Positions 4,275 to 28,195 of a stretch of 30,612 bases of DNA are shown here, in pieces (position 1 is the stretch's first letter; each line of letters starts with the position of its first letter). The translations under genes and the position numbers were made by a program. The stretch is taken from IMG/VR virus record IMGVR_UViG_3300036985_002287, positions 1 to 30,612 of that record; one strand, given 5' to 3'. Source of the stretch: a virus. The notes below the pieces were generated by a model. That model saw nothing but the letters and a program-made list of their open reading frames with translations, had not been told where the DNA came from and made no database searches.

Positions 4275-4303
4275 ATTATAGCACAAATCTAAGCGTATGC
4301 AAT
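4275..4303 (-). promoter_or_regulatory. Weak promoter
   Basis: The -10 is TATAAT (4275-4280), with a poor -35 (ATTGCA, 4298-4303) at 17 bp. There is no conserved leader. It probably serves 3928-4155 and 3776-3928. Confidence 0.5.
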
Positions 4304-4699
4304 TTGTTTTGATGGCCAACGCTGTTTATTTTGGTACACCCGGAGCTCCTTGCTTGTACCAAACACCTTCTCTGCCCTATACATTTCATGCACTTCTGCT
4401 TCCTTAGAGTGCATAATAACCACTTTCGTATTCTTAAAGGTGTCGAATTGTGTTGCAGTTACATCTAAAACATGGTCTTCTATTACGATGTAGCAGTGTG
4501 ACCCCATATAATGCTCCGTACTTACACATATATCAGCCTTAATGCCTTCCTTCTTCAGCCGCTTATGTAGTTCAGCAGAAGCAATTGCACACCATCCTAA
4601 TAGGTTATCCGGATGATAGTTCTTACGGAATGCTTCCTTTTCAACCCAGTCACGCACTGTATATGCTATCGTCGTGGCCGTGACAAGTGTGTTCTTCAT
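4289..4699 (-). CDS. Papain-like / transglutaminase-like protein (136 aa)
   Basis: The order is GWCAIASAELHKRLK (C37), then SHCYIVIEDHVLDVTATQF (H68, D75 or D79). A Cys heading a helix followed by His-Asp on strands is the layout of papain-fold (transglutaminase, NlpC/P60-like) hydrolases. The protein at 13276-13770 has the same layout. The promoter at 4706-4734 and CTCCTA-complement site AGGAG support the start at 4699. The substrate is unknown. Confidence 0.8.
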   Translation of the reverse strand: MKNTLVTATTIAYTVRDWVEKEAFRKNYHPDNLLGWCAIASAELHKRLKKEGIKADICVSTEHYMGSHCYIVIEDHVLDVTATQFDTFKNTKVVIMHSKEAEVHEMYRAEKVFGTSKELRVYQNKQRWPSKQIAYA

Positions 4700-4705
4700 G
4701 CTCCT

Positions 4706-4734
4706 ATTGTAAGGTAGTGTTAGGCAAATGTCAA
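4706..4734 (-). promoter_or_regulatory. sigma70-type promoter
   Basis: -35 TTGACA (4729-4734), 17-bp spacer, -10 TACAAT (4706-4711). The leader is very short and lacks the conserved sequence. It reads out of the left edge of the repeat-rich non-coding region. Confidence 0.75.
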
Positions 4735-5471
4735 CAAGGTAGAGATGCAGTCATACCTCGCTATACAATCTTCTGCCATTGAGCCTTGGTCTACCGAGAC
4801 ATTTGCAGGCCTCGGTAACATCTATGAGCACTGGGAAAAACAGTTAGCGAGGTATTAATACCGGGCCGCAGCCTCGGTAACTTTAAGCTTACTGGGCCAA
4901 CCTGCTACCGAGACTGAAACTCTTCGGTAAGTAAGCACCAACTAACCCTATCGAAACCCTTTCTATCGAAATTCGAAACTCTCGATACCCATTTCACCTT
5001 TCGATAGAGTTTCGGTATTCGAGTTTCGGTTTTCTATATTGAAAAGGATTTCATAATGATACCCTATCAAAGAGTATCTATAGAGTATCAGATAGATAGA
5101 AATTCTCTGCGGACATAGTATAAACTGTAGGCATAGTATAGATAGGATTTCACAAATGGCGATAGGGCCTTGATGCCCTTTATTAAATTAACTATATCCA
5201 TCGCATGACGAAACATTGGCGCGTGCAGGCATATATGTAAATCAATATCGCTTTCTGCATTATATGCGATATCCGCAACTAACTATAGGACTCAATACCT
5301 ACTGGTTTATCATTTATTATTCGCTGTTATACCTGTTTGCGAAATGTAATAGATATGTGATAGAACTTCTAACTGCTGGCCAATGCTCGTAAGCGACTTT
5401 AAGAATAGCATATCTATCTAATTTACTACAATGTTATTTATCATATAGAGCATCAATGTGTACTACTGTTC

Positions 5472-5661
5472 GATAGAGTATCTACCTGATGCCAGTTGCT
5501 ATACCTTCATGATGGTGCAGGTGATACAGTGTTTACGGTAGCTGTAGTGTAAGATAGGGTATCGATAGAGTATCAGAAGGTGTTCAGATAGGGGTATGTG
5601 TTTAGGTAGAGGTATGTGTATAGGGTATCTACCTTGTGTGCATAGCGATAGATAGAGTATC
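5472..5661. repeat. GATAGRGTATC direct repeats
   Basis: Copies lie at 5472-5482, 5553-5563, 5564-5574, 5620-5629 (first base changed) and 5651-5661. Three are followed by TACC or TACCTT. The two copies at 5553 and 5564 are exactly adjacent. The spacing elsewhere is irregular, so these look like protein-binding sites rather than a satellite. Confidence 0.7.
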
Positions 5662-5884
5662 TACCTTAAGCAATGATAGCCAATGAGATAGGTAGAAATG
5701 CATACACGCACACATCTATCGAGCGCGAATGCGAAATCCGCGTGCGAATCTGCGCCCAAAACCCTATCTAGAAATGTCGCCTAGGATTCCTATCTAGAAT
5801 TCCTACCTTAAAGACCAAATCTGACCTGGAAATCTACCGAGAGAGGCGAGCTCGAATTCATTCAAACCATATACGTTGATAAAA

Positions 5885-5910
5885 TTGCACATCTTTGCAC
5901 TTTATTGCAC
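5885..5910. repeat. Three helically phased TTGCAC repeats
   Basis: TTGCAC occurs at 5885-5890, 5895-5900 and 5905-5910, each copy 10 bp after the last and so on the same DNA face. Confidence 0.7.
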
Positions 5911-6050
5911 TTCACTACATCTACCTGCCCTTGCATACACTTCTGTGCCCACTTTTACCTGCCCTTACAGTGCTCTAACGTCCCCTACCTTCCCCTATCT
6001 TTCTCTATTGCTACCCTTGCCTTATCCCAGCTTTTATGCTTACTTGAGTA

Positions 6051-6341
6051 TCATTTACTTTCATCTTCGTCCATTTGTTTCAACGGTTCTTCATATTCTC
6101 TTATTCTCTTTCTTAATGAGTCTAAGTATCTTCTTCTATAGTGTGCTTGAAACATTCCACCATTATAATAGTGAGCAGTCAACTTCATATGCTCGTGTAT
6201 CCATGTTGGAGCAGACAGCATTGAATCTGTACCTAATTCTTCTCTACACCAATCACATAGTATTTGCTGAGGTATTCGTCTTAAGTCTTCTATTAGAAAG
6301 TCTTCGTCTATGCGACACTTGATAACATCAAATAGGCTCAT
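6051..6341 (-). CDS. FDVIR-family paralog 7 (96 aa)
   Basis: The start MSLFDVIKCRIDEDFLIEDL is followed by RRIPQQILCDWCREELG. It is the last gene of the tandem array. Its ATG region (ATGAGCCTATTTGA) also encodes the end of 6328-6588. Where its siblings stop after EPI, this copy reads on (EYEEPLKQMDEDESK) because the overlap sequence has decayed. The function is unknown; the family is defined here by N-terminal M(S/T)(L/I)FDVI(R/K), a central IP, and C-terminal EYD/EPI. Confidence 0.85.
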   Translation of the reverse strand: MSLFDVIKCRIDEDFLIEDLRRIPQQILCDWCREELGTDSMLSAPTWIHEHMKLTAHYYNGGMFQAHYRRRYLDSLRKRIREYEEPLKQMDEDESK

Positions 6342-6588
6342 AATCGAGTAATACCTTTTTGAATATGGGATACTTAAGATGATTATCTTCCATCCATTTT
6401 ACTGCCAGGTAACTAGCTTGTGACTCAAGACTATGATTCTCGATTATATCTAATAACATATCTCCAGTATGAAAATAAGCATATGACGCACGTTGATAGG
6501 CTGCGAATATATCTGGCGGAAGGTTAGCTATTTCGTCTCTACTATTTAAATCGATATCGCCATATCGTATAACATCAAATAGGCTCAT
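6328..6588 (-). CDS. FDVIR-family paralog 6 (86 aa)
   Basis: It starts MSLFDVIRYGDIDLNSRDEI with LPPDIFAAYQ in the middle and ends LLDYEPI. The last residues are encoded by the first 14 nt of the next gene in another frame. No separate ribosome binding site is clear, so translation is probably coupled to the gene before. Confidence 0.85.
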   Translation of the reverse strand: MSLFDVIRYGDIDLNSRDEIANLPPDIFAAYQRASYAYFHTGDMLLDIIENHSLESQASYLAVKWMEDNHLKYPIFKKVLLDYEPI

Positions 6589-6775
6589 CGTATTCCGATA
6601 GAAGTGTTATTAGGATATTGCGAATTTGTTCTGGTGGCTTGTTGAATTTATTATTAATAGAAAGGCTGTTCCAATATCTTGTGTATCTATAGCGAACTTG
6701 TTCAGGCAGAGATTCGAACTCCTTAACCAGCACTGGTATGCTTAATGGATACTTGATAACATCAAATAGGCTCAT
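6575..6775 (-). CDS. FDVIR-family paralog 5 (66 aa)
   Basis: It starts MSLFDVIKYPLSIPVLVKEF, has SLPEQVRYRYTRYW, and ends LSEYDEPI. This is one of the two shortest members, lacking much of the central region. It has a 14-nt overlap at each end with its neighbours. Confidence 0.85.
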   Translation of the reverse strand: MSLFDVIKYPLSIPVLVKEFESLPEQVRYRYTRYWNSLSINNKFNKPPEQIRNILITLLSEYDEPI

Positions 6776-7019
6776 ATTCGGCTATGGCCTTTCTTGCTTG
6801 TTTGATTTGTTTCTTAATCGCATCGGAGTTTGGGGCGCGCCATAGGTGATCGAAGTAGATATGGTTTACGAGAAGTTGAAATTGAGCCTGTGTGCTTATG
6901 TTTTTTCTTACACCGAATATATCGAACATTTTCAATAGCAGATCATCAGGCAATCGACTAAACTCTTCTTTTGTCGGTATGTCACTTAGTGGATATCGTA
7001 TAACATCAAAGATAGTCAT
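6762..7019 (-). CDS. FDVIR-family paralog 4 (85 aa)
   Basis: It starts MTIFDVIRYPLSDIPTKEEF, then RLPDDLLLKMFDIFG, and ends AIAEYEPI. A longer frame begins at 7037, but the ATG at 7019 matches all siblings and gives the same 14-nt overlap with the preceding gene, so it is preferred. Confidence 0.86.
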   Translation of the reverse strand: MTIFDVIRYPLSDIPTKEEFSRLPDDLLLKMFDIFGVRKNISTQAQFQLLVNHIYFDHLWRAPNSDAIKKQIKQARKAIAEYEPI

Positions 7020-7278
7020 CGTCGTCCCACTTAGCAATAAGTCTTCTTAGAAAGGAGACTTCGGCTTTATCCGCTGCTATAGCATCTTCTGTCCTGAGAT
7101 TCTCTTGTGTACAAGGTCTCCAGTACCAGGACGCCATGCCGGCTGGCGAAACTGTTCCATGTTCTCTCCAGACAGTATTATCACGCCACATCTGTATTAT
7201 GGGTTTAGGTATTCGTTGGAGTTCTTCTACAGTAGGCTTATCGCTTACTGGATAACGTATTGCGTCAAATATCGTCAT
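7006..7278 (-). CDS. FDVIR-family paralog 3 (90 aa)
   Basis: It starts MTIFDAIRYPVSDKPTVEEL, then QRIPKPIIQMWRDN, and ends IAKWDDDDYL. The final DYL-stop is read from the overlap that gives MTIF to the next gene. The middle carries a Trp-rich insertion (MASWYWRPC). The function is unknown. Confidence 0.86.
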   Translation of the reverse strand: MTIFDAIRYPVSDKPTVEELQRIPKPIIQMWRDNTVWREHGTVSPAGMASWYWRPCTQENLRTEDAIAADKAEVSFLRRLIAKWDDDDYL

Positions 7279-7516
7279 ATTCTTTCAATCTTTTCTTTAA
7301 TGCAGCTAAAACTATATCACGATGTTCACTCCATCCATACCATTTCTTATCTGCATTCAATGTCATATAATTATAGATTGATTGCGCGTTAGCCGGCTTA
7401 ATGAGAATGCCTAGATCTTCGTAACACCATTTTTCTAATATAGGTGAAGGAATTCGTTCCAGATCTGCTAAGAGAAATCTACTATCGATGTGGCACTTGA
7501 TAACATCAAATATCAT
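7265..7516 (-). CDS. FDVIR-family paralog 2 (83 aa)
   Basis: It starts MIFDVIKCHIDSRFLLADLE, then RIPSPILEKWCYEDLG, and ends LKKRLKEYDDI. It is closest to paralog 7 in the FDVIKC.ID...IP..IL..WC.E.LG pattern, which suggests a recent duplication. The start lacks one N-terminal residue of the siblings, so the upstream overlap is 11 nt. Confidence 0.85.
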   Translation of the reverse strand: MIFDVIKCHIDSRFLLADLERIPSPILEKWCYEDLGILIKPANAQSIYNYMTLNADKKWYGWSEHRDIVLAALKKRLKEYDDI

Positions 7517-7694
7517 CTTCGTGCCTAAGTATCATCCATCTAATTAGCGCAGTTCCTTCTTCGCTAAAGATTTGAACACCAGATTCTTGTATTGCCTTGA
7601 GTATCTCTACCTTTAATGGATTGGAGATCGCGTGAAGTTCTTCCAGGGTAGCTGGATTGCTTATTGGATATCTTATAACATCAAATAGGCTCAC
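7506..7694 (-). CDS. FDVIR-family paralog 1, GTG start (62 aa)
   Basis: The family start SLFDVIRYPISNPATLEELH is preceded by GTG at 7694; a TTG at 7703 would add three residues. GTG is chosen because it aligns with the siblings and lies one base behind the stop of 7696-7884 (TAGTGTG). It ends LRHEDDI. It is the first member of the array. Confidence 0.8.
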   Translation of the reverse strand: MSLFDVIRYPISNPATLEELHAISNPLKVEILKAIQESGVQIFSEEGTALIRWMILRHEDDI

Positions 7695-7695
7695 A

Positions 7696-7884
7696 CTATT
7701 CAATTACTCGTAATACTTTTAACCATTTATTGAAATCGCGCAGCTTCCATTGGCCGGTCTTAACCCATTCAAATACATGGCTCGTACTTATGCTGGCGAT
7801 CTGATCATCAGTAAGCCTGTTTTCGTGCTTAATGTCTTCAGAACGAATTTTACGAGCAATGCGGGCTTCTAGTTCAGGTATCAT
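7696..7884 (-). CDS. Hypothetical phage protein (62 aa)
   Basis: It starts MIPELEARIARKIRSEDIKH and has HVFEWVKTGQWKLRDFNKWL near the end. It is probably all alpha-helical. The ATG at 7884 is 2 nt behind the stop of the preceding gene (TAAATATG). It sits just ahead of the FDVIR array in the same operon. Confidence 0.8.
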   Translation of the reverse strand: MIPELEARIARKIRSEDIKHENRLTDDQIASISTSHVFEWVKTGQWKLRDFNKWLKVLRVIE

Positions 7885-7886
7885 AT

Positions 7887-8132
7887 TTATAGTTTTTCGA
7901 CGATCATGATTTTGTTGCCTGGATGGAACCATTGAATATGACCACGTGTCGTGGCATTATATAGATCGACCATTCGTACACCTATGATCAACTCATCTGT
8001 GCAGTTATATCCAAACTCAGCTACTGTGCCCAATTCTAATTGATTCCCTTTTATCGTGATCACTACCTTATCGCCGATATTGAATTCGGCAAAGGTAATC
8101 TTATTTTGTTCCATCTGTTGTTTGGATATCAT
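7887..8132 (-). CDS. Hypothetical beta-rich phage protein (81 aa)
   Basis: It contains FNIGDKVVITIKGNQLELGT and IQWFHPGNKIMIVEKL, a pattern of small beta-barrel (SH3-like) proteins. The ATG at 8132 overlaps the preceding stop by 4 nt (ATGA) with AGGTGTGG just upstream; an ATG at 8114 is an alternative. The function is unknown. Confidence 0.78.
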   Translation of the reverse strand: MISKQQMEQNKITFAEFNIGDKVVITIKGNQLELGTVAEFGYNCTDELIIGVRMVDLYNATTRGHIQWFHPGNKIMIVEKL

Positions 8133-8386
8133 TCCACACCTTTCAGAATGTAGATTTCGCTGTCAAGATCAAGCCGCCACAGTGTTCCCGGGCTGTAGCT
8201 TTTGTCAGCTTCGGTTGCTTGGAAGGTCTTGCGATTTATCTTTGTGACGACTGCCGTTACTTGATAATGGCCACCGCGACCGCGTCCGTTGCAAGTAAAC
8301 TCTACCTTGTCACCTACATATAGTTGGTAGATAGGTACTTCTTCGTACACCCAACCAAGTAATGGAGTAAGGGTTTTAGTTTTCAT
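8129..8386 (-). CDS. Hypothetical beta-rich phage protein (85 aa)
   Basis: It starts MKTKTLTPLLGWVYEEVPIY, then LYVGDKVEFTCNGRGRGGHY. The DKV/F plus Gly-rich arrangement resembles the next gene, so the two may be distant paralogs. It is the first gene of the ten-gene operon ending with the FDVIR array. The ATG at 8386 is chosen because it follows the promoter. Confidence 0.8.
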   Translation of the reverse strand: MKTKTLTPLLGWVYEEVPIYQLYVGDKVEFTCNGRGRGGHYQVTAVVTKINRKTFQATEADKSYSPGTLWRLDLDSEIYILKGVE

Positions 8387-8416: not shown

Positions 8417-8445
8417 ATTATATACTAGATGTTGGATGGTGTCAA
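8417..8445 (-). promoter_or_regulatory. sigma70-type promoter of the FDVIR operon
   Basis: -35 TTGACA (8440-8445), 17-bp spacer, -10 TATAAT (8417-8422). Leader ACACTCATCGCAGCAAAC. No other good promoter is seen before 6051, so it probably serves all ten genes. Confidence 0.83.
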
Positions 8446-14138: not shown

Positions 14139-14167
14139 ATTATAATATAAACACTTAATGATGTCAA
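14139..14167 (-). promoter_or_regulatory. sigma70-type promoter partly inside the homing endonuclease gene
   Basis: -35 TTGACA (14162-14167), 17-bp spacer, -10 TATAAT (14139-14144). The -35 is the complement of the first codons of the homing endonuclease. The conserved leader is absent but AAGGAG follows. Confidence 0.78.
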
Positions 14168-14730
14168 GTGATAAATATCATATGCCTTACATTTATCGTG
14201 TCGAAAATTTAGTGACAGGTCAATTTTATTACGGTGCTCGTTATATTGAAAAAACTACTCCGGAGCTCGACCTTTGGTTAAAATACTTTACTTCCTCTAA
14301 GGATGTAAAGAAATTAATAAAGGAATATGGTGTTCAGTCATTTACTAATCTTATCTTAGAAACTCATGCAGACGCCGATATTTGCTATCAAAAAGAACAG
14401 GATTTTATAAAAGAATATATCGATAATCCGCTATGTCTGAATAAACAATATACAATGTGTGGAAAGAAGATATTTCTATGCAAAGGCCATACGAATGAAA
14501 CAAAGGAAAAGATGAGTATTGCTAATAAAGGCAAACCGGCATGGAATAAAGGCATCTCCCCGTCCGACAATACGAGGCAAAAAATATCTCTTTCTGGAAA
14601 AGGTGTTGCAGGGTCCAAGAAAGGTGTAAAGAAAGGACCACGATCATTGGAAACTCGCCGGAAGATCTCGGAAACTAATATTCGAAAAAATGCAGAGCGT
14701 AGATTATTGTCTGACTCGTTTATCGAGTAA
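14158..14730 (+). CDS. GIY-YIG homing endonuclease with NUMOD3-type repeats
   Basis: The only plus-strand gene. Residues 9-26 (MPYIYRVENLVTGQFYYG) are the GIY-YIG core, followed by AR and later by an EQDFIKEY..NPLCLN segment with candidate catalytic Glu and Asn. From about 108 come NUMOD3-type motifs (TNETKEKMSIANKGKPAWNK, TRQKISLSGKG, LETRRKISETN), which bind DNA. The gene is AT-rich compared with its neighbours and has no clear ribosome binding site. ATG at 14182 is an alternative start. It is probably a mobile SegA-like gene inserted in an intergenic promoter. Confidence 0.92.
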   Translation: MMSSDKYHMPYIYRVENLVTGQFYYGARYIEKTTPELDLWLKYFTSSKDVKKLIKEYGVQSFTNLILETHADADICYQKEQDFIKEYIDNPLCLNKQYTMCGKKIFLCKGHTNETKEKMSIANKGKPAWNKGISPSDNTRQKISLSGKGVAGSKKGVKKGPRSLETRRKISETNIRKNAERRLLSDSFIE

Positions 14731-22648: not shown

Positions 22649-23272
22649 TTATCTTTCAAAAGTGACAGTAAAATCTGGACAGTCTCTATACATTTGAGGT
22701 ATAAGATTGCCTTCTGCTGCAATCATTAATCCCAAATTATGTAATTCTTTATCATAGTTAGCTGTTTTTAAGGCATCTAACACAACCTCCACACAGCTGA
22801 CTCTAGTAGAATCGGACAGGTCGAAAAGGTCGTCGTATGGTTTTCCAACTTGCTTTACTAGAGAATCGATAATTGCCGTCCATTCACTGTTCTCTATATT
22901 AGCAGGTGTCAATAAGCACACATTATCACAAGAGAAAACTTCGTCAAAAGTTGTATAAACGACACCCTTTACATCGGCTTCCACAAACTTAAATCCACTA
23001 CGGTTTAGTGGATCTTCTATGTTATCACAATTCATTAGAGCGTGACTATATTTTGCCCACTTACCTGTCTTAATCCACGATAAGAAACTAACAAGGACGC
23101 TACTCAGATGAGATTTATTGCCTGTAAGAATGATATAATATCCTTTCGAGAGTACAGCAGCCAAATGGTCTTTATCATGTTCGTCTACTGCATGTTTGTT
23201 GCTCCAACGAATTTTAGGTGGCAGTTGGGCAAGCCAGTGATATGTGCGATAGAGTATTGTATTGTATTTCAT
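22649..23272 (-). CDS. Permuted papain-like (YiiX/NlpC-P60-type) hydrolase (207 aa)
   Basis: H77 in YSHALM, an acidic residue in FKFVEAD (E98), GVVYTTFDEVF, then GKPYDDLFD (143-151) and C160 in TRVSCVEVVLDAL. The His-first, Cys-late order is that of circularly permuted NlpC/P60 proteins such as YiiX, which may be amidases or acyl-hydrolases. The start at 23272 lies on the 3' flank of a hairpin that holds its AGGAG. AT-rich compared with the surrounding operons. Confidence 0.83.
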   Translation of the reverse strand: MKYNTILYRTYHWLAQLPPKIRWSNKHAVDEHDKDHLAAVLSKGYYIILTGNKSHLSSVLVSFLSWIKTGKWAKYSHALMNCDNIEDPLNRSGFKFVEADVKGVVYTTFDEVFSCDNVCLLTPANIENSEWTAIIDSLVKQVGKPYDDLFDLSDSTRVSCVEVVLDALKTANYDKELHNLGLMIAAEGNLIPQMYRDCPDFTVTFER

Positions 23273-23400: not shown

Positions 23401-23712
23401 TCACTGCGAATCGTATGCAGCAATTATCTTCTTCAAGCTATTAGTGTATCTTTTTTTATGGAGTCCAATTAAGATATCTATTGTATCCCATCTTGCTGTA
23501 TAGGATGTTTCTTTTATCTTTGTAAGCATTATGTTATAAATTATAACTGAAAAATCATTTCTTTTATCTTTAAGATTTAATTCGAATGGATAATTAACAT
23601 CTTCTATACATTCGGCGATCCATGTTTCTAATATTTCTCGTGGAATATTTTTCAGATCGTTGTTATTAGCTATGTCGGGATTAGAGAACCGCAACGTATC
23701 AAAGATTGTCAT
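23401..23712 (-). CDS. FDVIR-family paralog 8, orphan copy (103 aa)
   Basis: It starts MTIFDTLRFSNPDIANNNDL, then KNIPREILETWIAECIED, and ends SLKKIIAAYDSQ. The N-terminus, central IP and C-terminal AYD match the array at 6051-7694. The ATG overlaps the stop of the toxin-like gene by one base (TGATG), so it is the third gene of that operon. Confidence 0.85.
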   Translation of the reverse strand: MTIFDTLRFSNPDIANNNDLKNIPREILETWIAECIEDVNYPFELNLKDKRNDFSVIIYNIMLTKIKETSYTARWDTIDILIGLHKKRYTNSLKKIIAAYDSQ

Positions 23713-24322: not shown

Positions 24323-24499
24323 TTATGCATATTTATCAGTTAATGCTTCCTTGCGTTCTCCTTCGATATCACTGATTGCTTCCTTCAGCGTCTTGCCACA
24401 GGTACCTACATATTGTTCGCCATCTTTCCACCATGCATACAATCGTACACCTTCGACGATGCCGTTAAAGTATTCATGGATGCGTCCTGCATCTTTCAT
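24323..24499 (-). CDS. Small hypothetical phage protein (58 aa)
   Basis: It starts MKDAGRIHEYFNGIVEGVRL, contains YAWWKDGEQYVGTCGKTLKE, and ends acidic/helical. The ATG overlaps the stop of 24496-24741 (ATGA). It is the last gene of the operon read from 26851. No terminator is seen before the next promoter. Confidence 0.8.
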   Translation of the reverse strand: MKDAGRIHEYFNGIVEGVRLYAWWKDGEQYVGTCGKTLKEAISDIEGERKEALTDKYA

Positions 24500-24741
24500 T
24501 CTACCACTCCAAAATGTTCTAAAATCTGGTCTCGGGCAGCACCTAGCACTGCACTATCACCACCCTCAACATCTTCCAGGTCAGTATTGCGGGCAACGAT
24601 GGCACACTCGCGCACTATCAACTCGGCGAATTTTTCGGGGTTCAGTTCGTATCCTTCAAATTCAGGAGATCCGTTGTAAGGGTTGTTGCCCCACACTTCA
24701 TCAGAAGCATCGCTGATCAGTTCTTTAATTCGTTCGTTCAT
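24496..24741 (-). CDS. MNERIKEL-family protein (81 aa)
   Basis: It starts MNERIKELISDASDEVWGNN, then EKFAELIVRECAIVARN and ends ILEHFGVVE. This family (N-terminal MNERIKEL, central EKFAELIVREC, C-terminal I..HFGVE) is very common in phages; function unknown. Adjacent ATGs at 24744 and 24741; the second aligns with the siblings. Confidence 0.87.
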   Translation of the reverse strand: MNERIKELISDASDEVWGNNPYNGSPEFEGYELNPEKFAELIVRECAIVARNTDLEDVEGGDSAVLGAARDQILEHFGVVE

Positions 24742-24938
24742 CATTTTGTCTTAGGTTGGTAAGAGTTGATTATTGTTACAAAGAATTTATTGTAAGCAGT
24801 TTCGAATCCACGCTTGTAGTCGTCCGCTTCGACTTCTTCTCCTGGCTGGTCATATATCTGCTGCCACATCAATCCCTCCCGGCCATCCGCATACCCTTGC
24901 TCATAAGGGGTTTTCATTCCTGCATTGCCGGTTGCCAT
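24741..24938 (-). CDS. Small protein with ribosome-modulation-factor-like motif (65 aa)
   Basis: TPYEQGYADGREG (about 10-22) resembles the YxxGYxAGxxG motif of RMF-like proteins, and a second aromatic stretch (DDYKRGFETAYNKFF) follows. The ATG overlaps the preceding stop by one base (TAATG). A role on ribosomes is only a possibility. Confidence 0.75.
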   Translation of the reverse strand: MATGNAGMKTPYEQGYADGREGLMWQQIYDQPGEEVEADDYKRGFETAYNKFFVTIINSYQPKTK

Positions 24939-25201
24939 TATGCGGTTACCTCATTCAGTCGTTCCCGCGCAGCACCCGCAAAGGAAGAGATGTTGCCACA
25001 CTTGTCTTCCCAGCGCAGGAGATTGCGGCAAGTGTATGCAATATCTTTACGATCCCAACACACAGCTTCCTGATTCAACTCTCCATTTAGGAATACTCGG
25101 CAGTGAAACTCGCCGTTTATATTTCGAACTGTGACTTCATGCTCACACTCACCTTGGAGGACTTTCTGCATTTCCATGAGTTCTTTATACCTGTGTTTCA
25201 T
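24938..25201 (-). CDS. Hypothetical phage protein (87 aa)
   Basis: It starts MKHRYKELMEMQKVLQGECE and contains FHCRVFLNGELNQEAVCWDR and LLRWEDKCGNISS. Four Cys, not in a clear zinc pattern. ATGA overlap with the gene before. Confidence 0.78.
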   Translation of the reverse strand: MKHRYKELMEMQKVLQGECEHEVTVRNINGEFHCRVFLNGELNQEAVCWDRKDIAYTCRNLLRWEDKCGNISSFAGAARERLNEVTA

Positions 25202-25476
25202 TCTTCAACTCCGAAAACATGTTCTCTGATTTCCTGAGCAACACACTGACACGTGGAGTGATAAACCATACGGTTAGCGTCCGGCATATCTTTCGGATCA
25301 ATGTCTGGATGAATACGCTTGTTTTCCATAGAAAACATTGACGCGGTTCTAGCACACTCACGCACGATTAACTCGGCGAATTTCTCAACACCACTGCGGT
25401 CACCGGCAAGGATATCGTTGTGTGTGGAGAATCGGAGGCCTGCTTCCCAGGCAAGTTCTCTCATACGTTCATTCAT
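25198..25476 (-). CDS. MNERIKEL-family protein (92 aa)
   Basis: It starts MNERMRELAWEAGLRFSTHN, then VEKFAELIVRECARTASMF, and ends IREHVFGVEE. It is a family member with a variable central segment. TAATG overlap with 25476-25700. Confidence 0.87.
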   Translation of the reverse strand: MNERMRELAWEAGLRFSTHNDILAGDRSGVEKFAELIVRECARTASMFSMENKRIHPDIDPKDMPDANRMVYHSTCQCVAQEIREHVFGVEE

Positions 25477-25700
25477 TATTCAACTCCAAAATGTTTCTTT
25501 AACATCATTGCCGCGGTCTCCATAGACTGGGCTTGTATTTCACGCCCTTGGAGGGCATCAAGGCGAAACATTTCCGTATGAAATATTTTAACGCCTTCTT
25601 TAATAATCAACTCGGCGAACTTTTCTTCACGGCTAGTATCACAAGTACCATCAACAACATAGTTGCATTTGGTCATAAGTTCTTTAATTCGTTCGTTCAT
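25476..25700 (-). CDS. MNERIKEL-family protein (74 aa)
   Basis: It starts MNERIKELMTKCNYVVDGTC, then EEKFAELIIKEGVKIF, and ends MLKKHFGVE. The ATG at 25700, not the longer frame, matches the family and overlaps the preceding stop (ATGA). Confidence 0.86.
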   Translation of the reverse strand: MNERIKELMTKCNYVVDGTCDTSREEKFAELIIKEGVKIFHTEMFRLDALQGREIQAQSMETAAMMLKKHFGVE

Positions 25701-25849
25701 TCTTCCACCTCGCAGTAAACAATTCGCTTCCACTTTCTATCGTCACCATCCCATTCATCGCGCGTTTCCTTGAAAACCCAGTGACCGTCCCCCTCGGGGT
25801 CTCCATCTTCGGACCAGTCAATTTCCCAATATAGCCATGCAAGTTTCAT
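25697..25849 (-). CDS. Small acidic aromatic phage protein (50 aa)
   Basis: It starts MKLAWLYWEIDWSEDGDPEG, then HWVFKETRDEWDGDDRKWKR, and ends IVYCEVEE. Overlaps on both sides (TGATG upstream, ATGA downstream) fix its place in the operon. Function unknown. Confidence 0.82.
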   Translation of the reverse strand: MKLAWLYWEIDWSEDGDPEGDGHWVFKETRDEWDGDDRKWKRIVYCEVEE

Positions 25850-26301
25850 CATACCTTAAACTGTTTAGTTACATCTTCCATTCTGATTTCGTGCGGAATA
25901 TGTTCGACCTTGGCGCGTTCGTACACGCGGTACGCATAGTCCGGACTGCACTCCAAGAACGCACAGACAACATCCGAGAACCCTTCGTCGGCGTATTCCT
26001 CTTCGGGAATGATTGGCGTGTCAAGCACCTCAATTTCTTCGAGGGTCAGCACAGCACGATGCTTTTCCATAACTGCGCGGATGGCCTCTGCCACTTCTTC
26101 GCGTTCAATTTCGCTTGGGTCATACATATTTCCGAAGCAGCCTTTGCGTTTCTTGCTTTTGAACAGTTTACACAGTTCCAGAATATATTCCACTCGCTCC
26201 TCTTCGAGCCCTTCGTGGACAGTCGTTTGATAATTGTCGGCATCGTTTTCCCACGATGTGACGGAGAGGCGATAACCTGCGGGGATGATTGTTTGTGTCA
26301 T
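25849..26301 (-). CDS. Conserved-type phage protein (150 aa)
   Basis: It contains GYRLSVTSWENDADNYQTTV, then LEEERVEYILELCKLF and a highly acidic middle. The RLSVTSWENDxDNYxT...G(L)....Y(I/L)..L.K.F pattern is familiar from many phages; function unknown. ATGA overlap with 26298-26594. Confidence 0.86.
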   Translation of the reverse strand: MTQTIIPAGYRLSVTSWENDADNYQTTVHEGLEEERVEYILELCKLFKSKKRKGCFGNMYDPSEIEREEVAEAIRAVMEKHRAVLTLEEIEVLDTPIIPEEEYADEGFSDVVCAFLECSPDYAYRVYERAKVEHIPHEIRMEDVTKQFKV

Positions 26302-26594
26302 AGATATTCGTCCTTAGTTTCTATCGGTGCTCTATCAGCACGCTTCATTTGACCAATACGACTGGACTTATTCCAATCGTACACTTCACCGTCGGGTGTT
26401 TTACCATCTTTGACTTCATCCACCCCGTTTTGACCAACCTGGTCTACATTTTCTGCAGACATGGTAACAAACCGCATACCTTGACGGCGATGTAGTTCGG
26501 CATGTCGCAGAGCAGCATTCAAGTCAGTATGTTTCGCACTTGCTGGCTGGTCGTTAGACATTGTCCAATAGACCATATATTCTGTTTTGTTCAT
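26298..26594 (-). CDS. Conserved-type phage protein (98 aa)
   Basis: It contains YMVYWTMSNDQPASAKHTDL, RRQGMRFVTMSAENVDQVGQ and PDGEVYDWNKSSRIG. YWTMSNDQP...RRQG.RFVT.S.E.VDQVG...PDG..Y.WKK is a frequent phage pattern. ATGA overlap with the gene before. Confidence 0.86.
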   Translation of the reverse strand: MNKTEYMVYWTMSNDQPASAKHTDLNAALRHAELHRRQGMRFVTMSAENVDQVGQNGVDEVKDGKTPDGEVYDWNKSSRIGQMKRADRAPIETKDEYL

Positions 26595-26845
26595 GATACT
26601 TTCAACATTTCATTATTTTGTATATGTAGATCTTCCCGGGTCATTTTAACTATCTTTGTTAAGTCCGGAATTGTCAGCGTCTTAAAAACAGTTATGCCTA
26701 GTACGGTGTTGCTCGAGTCAAGTGTACGCAGGAATACGCCTAAATCCGGCATATTTGCCCGCATATAGATGTCTTGTACTATTGTGTCGCCTGCCCAAGA
26801 TTCGCCTGACAATAGCTTGACGGTAATCATATAACTGTATATCAT
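26591..26845 (-). CDS. Hypothetical phage protein (84 aa)
   Basis: It starts MIYSYMITVKLLSGESWAGD and contains TLTIPDLTKIVKMTREDLHI. The ATG at 26845 begins 5 nt after the -10, so it would be leaderless; an internal ATG at 26830 has no clear site either. Function unknown. Confidence 0.77.
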   Translation of the reverse strand: MIYSYMITVKLLSGESWAGDTIVQDIYMRANMPDLGVFLRTLDSSNTVLGITVFKTLTIPDLTKIVKMTREDLHIQNNEMLKVS

Positions 26846-26850
26846 GATGC

Positions 26851-26879
26851 ATTATATACTAATGCACGATCAAAGTCTA
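26851..26879 (-). promoter_or_regulatory. sigma70-type promoter, probably leaderless mRNA
   Basis: -35 TAGACT (26874-26879), 17-bp spacer, -10 TATAAT (26851-26856). The TAG of the -35 is the stop codon of 26877-27269. It drives the ten-gene operon down to 24323. Confidence 0.75.
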
Positions 26880-27269
26880 GTGGGCGAAGGATTCTACGTC
26901 CACGCCTTTAAGTACCATCACAATTTCATCTGCTTCGGTATATATTAAATTCTTACCTTCCAGTATGGTACGGCGATTCAAATCCGGTAGTTTTGTCCAT
27001 TCTTCTACCTTCTCATAAGACCCCCAGCATATACTCGGTGCCATATTAAGAATCCAGACAACTAGATATTTTAGAGCTTGAATAGTATTAGAAGGGTGGG
27101 AATGTACTATGGCTCCAGTGCAATCGTTGGCTAATACCGACGTAAAGAAGCTACCGGGTGAAAATCCGTGAACAAGGTAGTTATACATAACATCAGCGTA
27201 CTCTTTAGGTACATGATAGCTATCAAAATTTTTATGGATCTTGTATTTGCTGTAGTCGGATATATTCAT
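26877..27269 (-). CDS. Conserved-type phage protein (130 aa)
   Basis: It contains YADVMYNYLVHGFSPGSFFT and LANDCTGAIVHSHPSNTIQA. The YLV.GF.PGSFFT.VLANDL.GA...SHP.N.I..L pattern is widespread in phages without a known function. The ATG at 27269 overlaps the preceding stop (ATGA); a TTG at 27290 is less likely. Confidence 0.86.
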   Translation of the reverse strand: MNISDYSKYKIHKNFDSYHVPKEYADVMYNYLVHGFSPGSFFTSVLANDCTGAIVHSHPSNTIQALKYLVVWILNMAPSICWGSYEKVEEWTKLPDLNRRTILEGKNLIYTEADEIVMVLKGVDVESFAH

Positions 27270-27427
27270 TTTTGTTGCCGTCTCTTCCAAAGCAGTTCTT
27301 CTAACTCTTGATCATAAACATACGGGTGCAGCCAATACTCATTATCCTTCATCAATTCATCAGCTTTGGCAAGCCACGCAAGCATGGCCTTTTCGGCATC
27401 TGATTGATTGGGTTCGGACTCATTCAA
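27266..27427 (-). CDS. Small acidic helical protein, TTG start (53 aa)
   Basis: TTG at 27427 behind AGGAA gives MNESEPNQSDAEKAMLAWLA, then KADELMKDNEYW, ending LEELLWKRRQQK. It overlaps the preceding gene by 8 nt. The longer frame upstream is only a shadow of 27420-27653. Confidence 0.7.
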   Translation of the reverse strand: MNESEPNQSDAEKAMLAWLAKADELMKDNEYWLHPYVYDQELEELLWKRRQQK

Positions 27428-27653
27428 ATCTTTTCCTAATCTTTTCCACTTGTTTGTTGTAATCGTCAATTGCCAGATCACTGACAAAGCAGTCCTCGGA
27501 CCAAAATGCTTTCTTGCAGTCCTCGATGATTAGGTGGGCGAACTTTTCCAGAGCGTCACCGTTGGCTAAAACTGTGGCTGGAGTCGGGTCAAAATATCGT
27601 TTGTAATATGTCGCTCCTGCCTGTTCGGCAAGTTCTTCAATTCTTTTGTTCAT
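27420..27653 (-). CDS. MNERIKEL-family protein, divergent (77 aa)
   Basis: It starts MNKRIEELAEQAGATYYKRY, then LEKFAHLIIEDCKKAF, and ends VEKIRKRFE. The HFGVE tail is missing. ATGA overlap with 27650-27928. Confidence 0.85.
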   Translation of the reverse strand: MNKRIEELAEQAGATYYKRYFDPTPATVLANGDALEKFAHLIIEDCKKAFWSEDCFVSDLAIDDYNKQVEKIRKRFE

Positions 27654-27928
27654 TCTTCAACTCCAAAATGTTCCTTAATCTCGTCATCTGTCAATTCACC
27701 GGCTTCCATTTCTAGGAATAGAACCACATCATTACCTGTAAATCGGTCTTCGCCAACTGCCGCATACTTTTTAGCAGAATAAAGCATACCTGCACGAAAC
27801 GCTTCTGCCACAATCAACTCGGCGAATTTTTCTTGTTGTTCTACCCACGCTTCACAATATTCTCTGCCGTGAAAATCTAAAAACTTAATATCAGCCTGTT
27901 CAGCAAGTTCTTTAATTCGTTCGTTCAT
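27650..27928 (-). CDS. MNERIKEL-family protein (92 aa)
   Basis: It starts MNERIKELAEQADIKFLDFH, then EKFAELIVAEAFRAGM, and ends EIKEHFGVEE. The usual Cys after the EKFAELIV motif is replaced by Ala. Three bases separate it from the preceding stop. Confidence 0.87.
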   Translation of the reverse strand: MNERIKELAEQADIKFLDFHGREYCEAWVEQQEKFAELIVAEAFRAGMLYSAKKYAAVGEDRFTGNDVVLFLEMEAGELTDDEIKEHFGVEE

Positions 27929-27931
27929 TCT

Positions 27932-28195
27932 TCAACTCCGAAATGTTTCTTCAATCTCACGCATACAAGTATAAACTACTTGTTCTTGCGTCGGTGGCAC
28001 AAAATGTCTAATCTCATTTGCTCTGCTACAAGCCTCTAAACATTCTGCCACAATCAACTCGGCGAACTTTTCCACGTCAAGTGTACGAGAGTCTATATCA
28101 CCAGTGTCAGACCAAGAGCCTGCTGCATGTGAAGTATACCCACCGCATACAGTTGCTCCAGCTTGTTCGGCAAATTCTTTAATTCGTTCGTTCAT
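27932..28195 (-). CDS. MNERIKEL-family protein (87 aa)
   Basis: It starts MNERIKEFAEQAGATVCGGY, then VEKFAELIVAECLEAC, and ends REIEETFRS. The first of three consecutive family members. Two bases lie between it and the preceding stop (TAAGTATG). Confidence 0.86.
   Translation of the reverse strand: MNERIKEFAEQAGATVCGGYTSHAAGSWSDTGDIDSRTLDVEKFAELIVAECLEACSRANEIRHFVPPTQEQVVYTCMREIEETFRS

Follow-up and report, generated by a model that had tools for sequence, protein, structure and literature searches.

The locus analysed here raises the question of how a row of small, overlapping phage genes might change in content and order without its reading frames being broken. The window, by which we mean the whole 30,612-nucleotide stretch of DNA that was analysed, belongs to a 101,324-bp record that itself covers part of the genome of an uncultured jumbo myovirus, and at positions 7694 to 6051 it carries seven tandem minus-strand genes, all of them complete ORFs. 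These are member 1 (7506-7694, 62 aa, with a GTG start), member 2 (7265-7516, 83 aa), member 3 (7006-7278, 90 aa), member 4 (6762-7019, 85 aa), member 5 (6575-6775, 66 aa), member 6 (6328-6588, 86 aa) and the last, member 7 (6051-6341, 96 aa). The original prediction of seven paralogs joined by a dual-coding overlap was thus borne out as to the genes and their positions, all on the minus strand. The overlap itself was predicted to be 14 nt throughout, and it is so at five junctions: 2-3 (7265-7278, ATGACGATATTTGA), 3-4 (7006-7019), 4-5 (6762-6775), 5-6 (6575-6588) and 6-7 (6328-6341), the last three all reading ATGAGCCTATTTGA. Since member 2 starts with MIFDV, the first joint, 1-2 (7506-7516, ATGATATTTGA), measures only 11 nt, and with member 3 reading FDAIR instead of FDVIR, the proposed common start M(S/T)(L/I)FDVI(R/K) holds generally rather than without exception. 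Likewise, the motif is both a start and an end at the internal joints, whereas the last member has a C-terminal extension in place of the overlap tail and ends in ...YEEPLKQMDEDESK.

Scanning IMG/VR by pattern, protein and profile brought up the family in six more records, here called G001 to G006, with the window's own record as G000. The comparison set is therefore seven metagenomic records, at most three of which are near enough for comparison at the level of single junctions. Copy number in these related phages, which the original prediction proposed to count, ranges from 3 to ~12 per array: 3 in G001, ~12 in G002 (including one decayed member), ~9 in G003, 6 in G004, 5 in G005 and 6 in G006, beside the 7 of the window. 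Singlet members outside the arrays are found as well, one each in G000, G001, G002, G005 and G006. The one in the window is an isolated eighth member (23401-23712, minus strand, 103 aa, MTIFDTLRF...) without the 14-nt overlap, and G001 and G006 conserve it, likewise as a singlet, with a more distant singlet in G005. Close to this gene, positions 22649-23272 give a weak match to a permuted papain-like amidase (Peptidase_C92, E=1.2e-4, below the cut-off), and positions 24496-28195 hold a second tandem paralog family, MNERI(K/R)ELAEQAG..., also seen in G005 (L097:2854-3792). By its DNA polymerase the window record is 86% identical to G006 (a 210 kb record) and 81% to G003 (369 kb), both array-bearing, while the nearest cultured DNA polymerases, those of Sinorhizobium phage Phosso and Agrobacterium phage Atu_ph07, are ~43% identical.

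A profile built from the eight members matches these eight and nothing else in the 101,324-bp record, and a scan of all IMG/VR contigs with a 29-base degenerate start motif gave matches confined to the known family-bearing records. The original prediction had not recognised the family, and searches of Pfam, NCBIfam, PHROGs, PADLOC, PDB and BFVD likewise gave no significant match common to several members. Blastn and tblastn searches of INPHARED found no family homolog, the sole matches being at E>1; a pattern-limited contig scan of GTDB bacterial genomes found no relative; and a profile search of six cultured jumbo phages found no convincing member, a weak Atu_ph07 match (E=0.007, inside a 537-aa frame) being set aside among matches that were single or inconsistent. 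Matches to IBV_3A, Ourmia_CP, colicin immunity and PADLOC Orf5 were similarly rejected as weak, single or inconsistent among members. A further candidate was Tad6, an inhibitor of type I Thoeris, to which member 2 matches through PF25188 (E=0.0003, 21.3 bits). That score lies below the curated 27-bit cut-off, only 1 of 42 members matches, and none of the six related records gave a PF25188 match at E<=1; we take this to be a chance match, refuted as a family assignment by its failure to replicate in relatives, and regard a kinship with Tad6 as very improbable. As judged from these searches, the family is a previously undescribed one of small proteins.

ATGA start/stop overlaps are ordinary in phage operons, and the joints of G003 and G004, which mostly use a 4-nt ATGA version, resemble them. 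The main joint differs in that it extends to 14 nt, adds a second stop (TTTGA) and is conserved in sequence at every start, including those of first genes and singlets. Across all arrays, the within-array junctions tallied comprise 23 of 14 nt, 1 of 11 nt and 13 of 4 nt, the few remaining ones being gapped (-2, -246) or involving a broken gene. Of the three frames, the motif starts one and terminates both others: ATGA supplies a TGA in the second and TTTGA a TGA in the third. In the five records whose joints are mostly 14 nt long, 36/36 starts carry TTTGA, the stop in the third frame, and 35/36 carry the second-frame TGA; the 36 include those of first genes and singlets, which lack an upstream partner in need of a stop. 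Isolated homologs lacking the overlap, the case set against the original prediction, do exist, five records having one singlet apiece, yet all of them keep TTTGA. For comparison, phenylalanine codons in other sampled genes of the window stand at TTT:TTC = 33:33 (50% TTT). In G003 and G004, TTTGA is found at 2 of 15 starts, both of which end an upstream gene, a pattern showing that the use of TTT tracks the need for a stop. The starts counted belong to related genes with shared ancestry and are not independent, so simple probabilities overstate significance; even with significance inflated by kinship, the conservation of TTTGA appears far beyond chance.

Ordinary tandem duplication followed by vertical divergence would explain the joint differently, as a conserved N-terminal peptide combined with close packing of genes and with no role in exchange. 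Phages often have tandem paralogs and short overlaps, and the conserved F4-D5 pair, together with the singlets, shows the N-terminus to be important to the protein as such. What this account does not readily explain at the level of the joint is that G003 and G004 keep TTT only where a stop is needed.

Gene order was compared between the records. The G001 array consists of orthologs of members 1, 3 and 7 only, 94-96% identical in nucleotide sequence to those of the window (95% in amino acids for member 1), with member 2, whose nearest relative is G006.6, being absent. At its 1-3 junction, where the same start that opens member 3 in the window joins member 1 directly to member 3, the sequence switches in or next to ATGA, and at its 3-7 junction the crossover falls in TTTGATGTTAT, which in the window adjoins joint 3-4. 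In G006 the order is 3-5-4 instead of the window's 3-4-5, the ortholog of member 5 (G006.3) preceding that of member 4 (G006.4), and the blocks of similarity end inside the motif. Nucleotide identity between these two phages is 92% for member 5, 78% for member 4 and ~68% for member 3, with dS values of 0.22, 0.83 and ~2, respectively. Such unequal dS values for adjacent cassettes in the same two phages mean that neighbouring cassettes have different histories. Member 6 is without a clear ortholog.

The C-terminal tails of orthologs switch along with the gene that follows, as in the pairs HEDDI/HEDDDI, WDDDDYL/WDDYESI and SEYDEPI/SEYNDPI. G006.1 and member 1 have only the first ~40 nt in common, a likeness so limited that exchange may also fall slightly inside a gene. 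A tree of the family, weakly resolved overall, clusters clear orthologs across records and not by array, and the presence of one decayed member in G002 and another in G003 fits turnover. Among decayed family members, that at L092:5085-5346 has a frameshift and that at L095:6001-6276 an in-frame stop. As far as these records can be compared, the comparison shows the joint to be dual coding and whole genes to be gained, lost and reordered at it, with a direction of change that is not strictly polarisable. This agrees with the original suggestion that the array could grow by unequal recombination without broken frames, since both the 1-3-7 and the 3-5-4 arrangements have their breaks in the motif. 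Some pairs, namely G003.8/G003.9 (52%) and G005.3/G005.5 (47%), do resemble plain duplicates, but the order 4-5 against 5-4, the exact loss of cassettes at the motif and the unequal dS of adjacent cassettes all argue against duplication and vertical divergence as the whole account, and we consider it unlikely.

The proteins of the family are ~62-111 aa long. Residues 1-32 are conserved as M[ST][LI]FD-V-I-[RK]-Y-P-I-S...PT.EEL..LP......W, as is the last helix (LR..I.EY), and the middle varies in both sequence and length; the divergence of the bodies noted in the original prediction therefore lies between two conserved ends. Two AlphaFold2 models, one of them of member 3 (meaf14e9ccc84), contain four to five short helices; confidence is moderate overall (pLDDT 78 and 81, pTM 0.67) and low at residues 1-5 and in the C-terminal tail, the parts encoded by the overlap. 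The predicted product is thus a small four-helix domain whose overlap-encoded ends would be flexible. Foldseek returned no PDB match for either of the two models and no BFVD match for the first. Strong acidity of the kind seen in DNA mimics was considered and ruled out as a uniform trait, the pI ranging from 4.1 to 8.0 across members, which are mostly acidic.

Conserved ends flanking a variable middle could also be read as the mark of subunits of one hetero-oligomer, in which the ends make contact, the middle is specific to position and the overlaps couple production. Both ends, FDVI(R/K)YPI and LRxxIxEY, are placed as this would have them, and the conserved N-terminus is predicted to lack structure on its own, which might suit a segment that binds a partner. 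However, a copy number running from 3 to ~12, together with the decayed members, argues against a fixed stoichiometry, and no structural homolog was found in PDB or BFVD; we hold an oligomer to be a little less likely still than simple duplication.

Positive selection, which the original prediction had led us to look for, did not emerge. Between array orthologs, dN/dS is 0.17-0.41 on few substitutions, and these orthologs are, by such ratios, under purifying selection. The comparison genes (the singlet and two neighbours) have lower values of 0.03-0.07, from small counts. In silent-cassette arrays for antigenic variation, most copies are without start and stop signals and unexpressed. The members in the window are all complete ORFs, and the sampled orthologs have dN/dS values below 0.5.

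In G000, G001, G005 and G006 the array sits at one conserved place, between an MKTKTL gene and a YunG-like gene, the former being followed by an MIPELE gene in G000, G005 and G006. In the window, the upstream neighbour MIPELEARI... (7696-7932, minus strand) likely starts at the ATG at 7884 or nearby, and the downstream neighbour (4289-4699, minus strand) has a weak YunG-like match and forms a right flank conserved in G001, G005 and G006. A presumed operon leading into the array opens with the minus-strand gene MKTKTLTPLLGWVYEEVP... (8129-8386), also found upstream of the array in G001, G005 and G006, and is preceded by a predicted sigma-70 promoter, TTGACA-17-TATAAT (8417-8445, minus strand), with 12/12 consensus bases. 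Within the array, the minus strand showed no terminator-like site, and its single promoter-like site is weak (9/12). Shine-Dalgarno pairing at internal array starts has a median of -3.6 to -4.0 kcal/mol, compared with -5.4 in other genes and -2.5 at random positions; such weak internal sites are compatible with translational coupling and by themselves no proof of it. Judged from promoter sequence, the array may be expressed early.

Other features of the surroundings deserve mention. About 27 near-consensus promoter-like sites of the form TTGACA-16/18-TATAATAC are spread over the minus strand from 368 to 30272 (e.g., 3779, 8445, 15280 and 21720), nearly one per gene or small operon, most of them with a similar leader downstream, for example CATCGCAACAAAGGAG. 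Just after the array, ~1.35 kb (4700-6050) is almost without coding potential and has repeats around GATAGAGTATCTACCT, and a similar low-coding gap follows the array in G001. A plus-strand ORF at 14158-14730, amid minus-strand genes, reads like a GIY-YIG nuclease, and L093:3716-4195 and L096:8628-9056 encode low-complexity proteins with Ala/Trp/Tyr-rich repeats (WDAAREAA, NAAYAAYAAY).

Several known systems offer points of comparison. Integron cassettes are interchangeable single-gene modules in a row. The array, too, is such a row, but it lacks an attachment site and intergenic DNA (its genes overlap by 11-14 nt), its modules all belong to one family and its joints are homologous coding sequence. 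The closest likeness is to the modular shuffling mediated by PeSLs in T4-like phages (Arbiol 2010, Comeau 2014, as cited in PMC4503421 and PMC3950731), PeSLs being described there as promoter-plus-stem-loop elements between small early ORFs. As far as those accounts describe it, that system shares with ours the use in myoviruses of short repeats between small early ORFs as joints for cassette exchange, with repeated short homology bordering the exchanged modules, here at breakpoints in the start/stop motif. On the same accounts, the array differs in that its joint codes in two frames, the genes overlapping without intergenic space, and in that its joints are without a promoter-plus-stem-loop and its modules are all of one family. 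Bacillus phage G, with ~35 zinc-ribbon copies as a lineage-specific expansion in a jumbo phage (PMC7824862), likewise has a large phage genome with numerous paralogous genes for one small protein. The protein is unrelated, and what sets the present case apart is that the genes stand in one tandem array, share a joint and are reordered as cassettes between relatives.

We therefore favour, as the probable explanation, a row of exchangeable modules, all from one new family of small proteins, in a jumbo-phage lineage, with recombination joints. A cassette would consist of one body plus the start of the neighbouring gene, and the 14-nt motif ATGANNNTNTTTGA would act as the start of one gene and the stop of the previous one. 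Since the motif stops both alternative frames, an incoming body should end at once in any phase except that of an in-frame fusion. Crossovers within the motif and the ~10 nt that follow it (TTTGATGTTAT), whether by unequal exchange within one phage or by exchange between phages, could then delete, import or reorder whole genes without damage, altering only a few residues at the C-terminus of the preceding gene. Both the route of recombination and a coupling of translation at the joint are what we infer from this arrangement. An early-looking position, small size, a variable middle and a variable copy number would fit accessories for early host takeover or counter-defence, which the promoter context makes the probable role of the products. 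The further step, that their variable middle binds different host proteins, we find plausible though somewhat short of an even chance. It is possible, and we propose this more tentatively, that the start/stop element evolved as a frame-tolerant joint that keeps an early anti-defence repertoire refreshed by gene swaps between phages.

On this explanation, the array would be a natural case of genes made interchangeable by overlapping, the joint lying in the code itself with both wrong frames closed and the damage from exchange confined to a few flexible terminal residues. Reshuffling of phage gene arrays would then be possible without intergenic signals, and an undescribed family of small phage proteins would be placed where host-takeover genes often lie.
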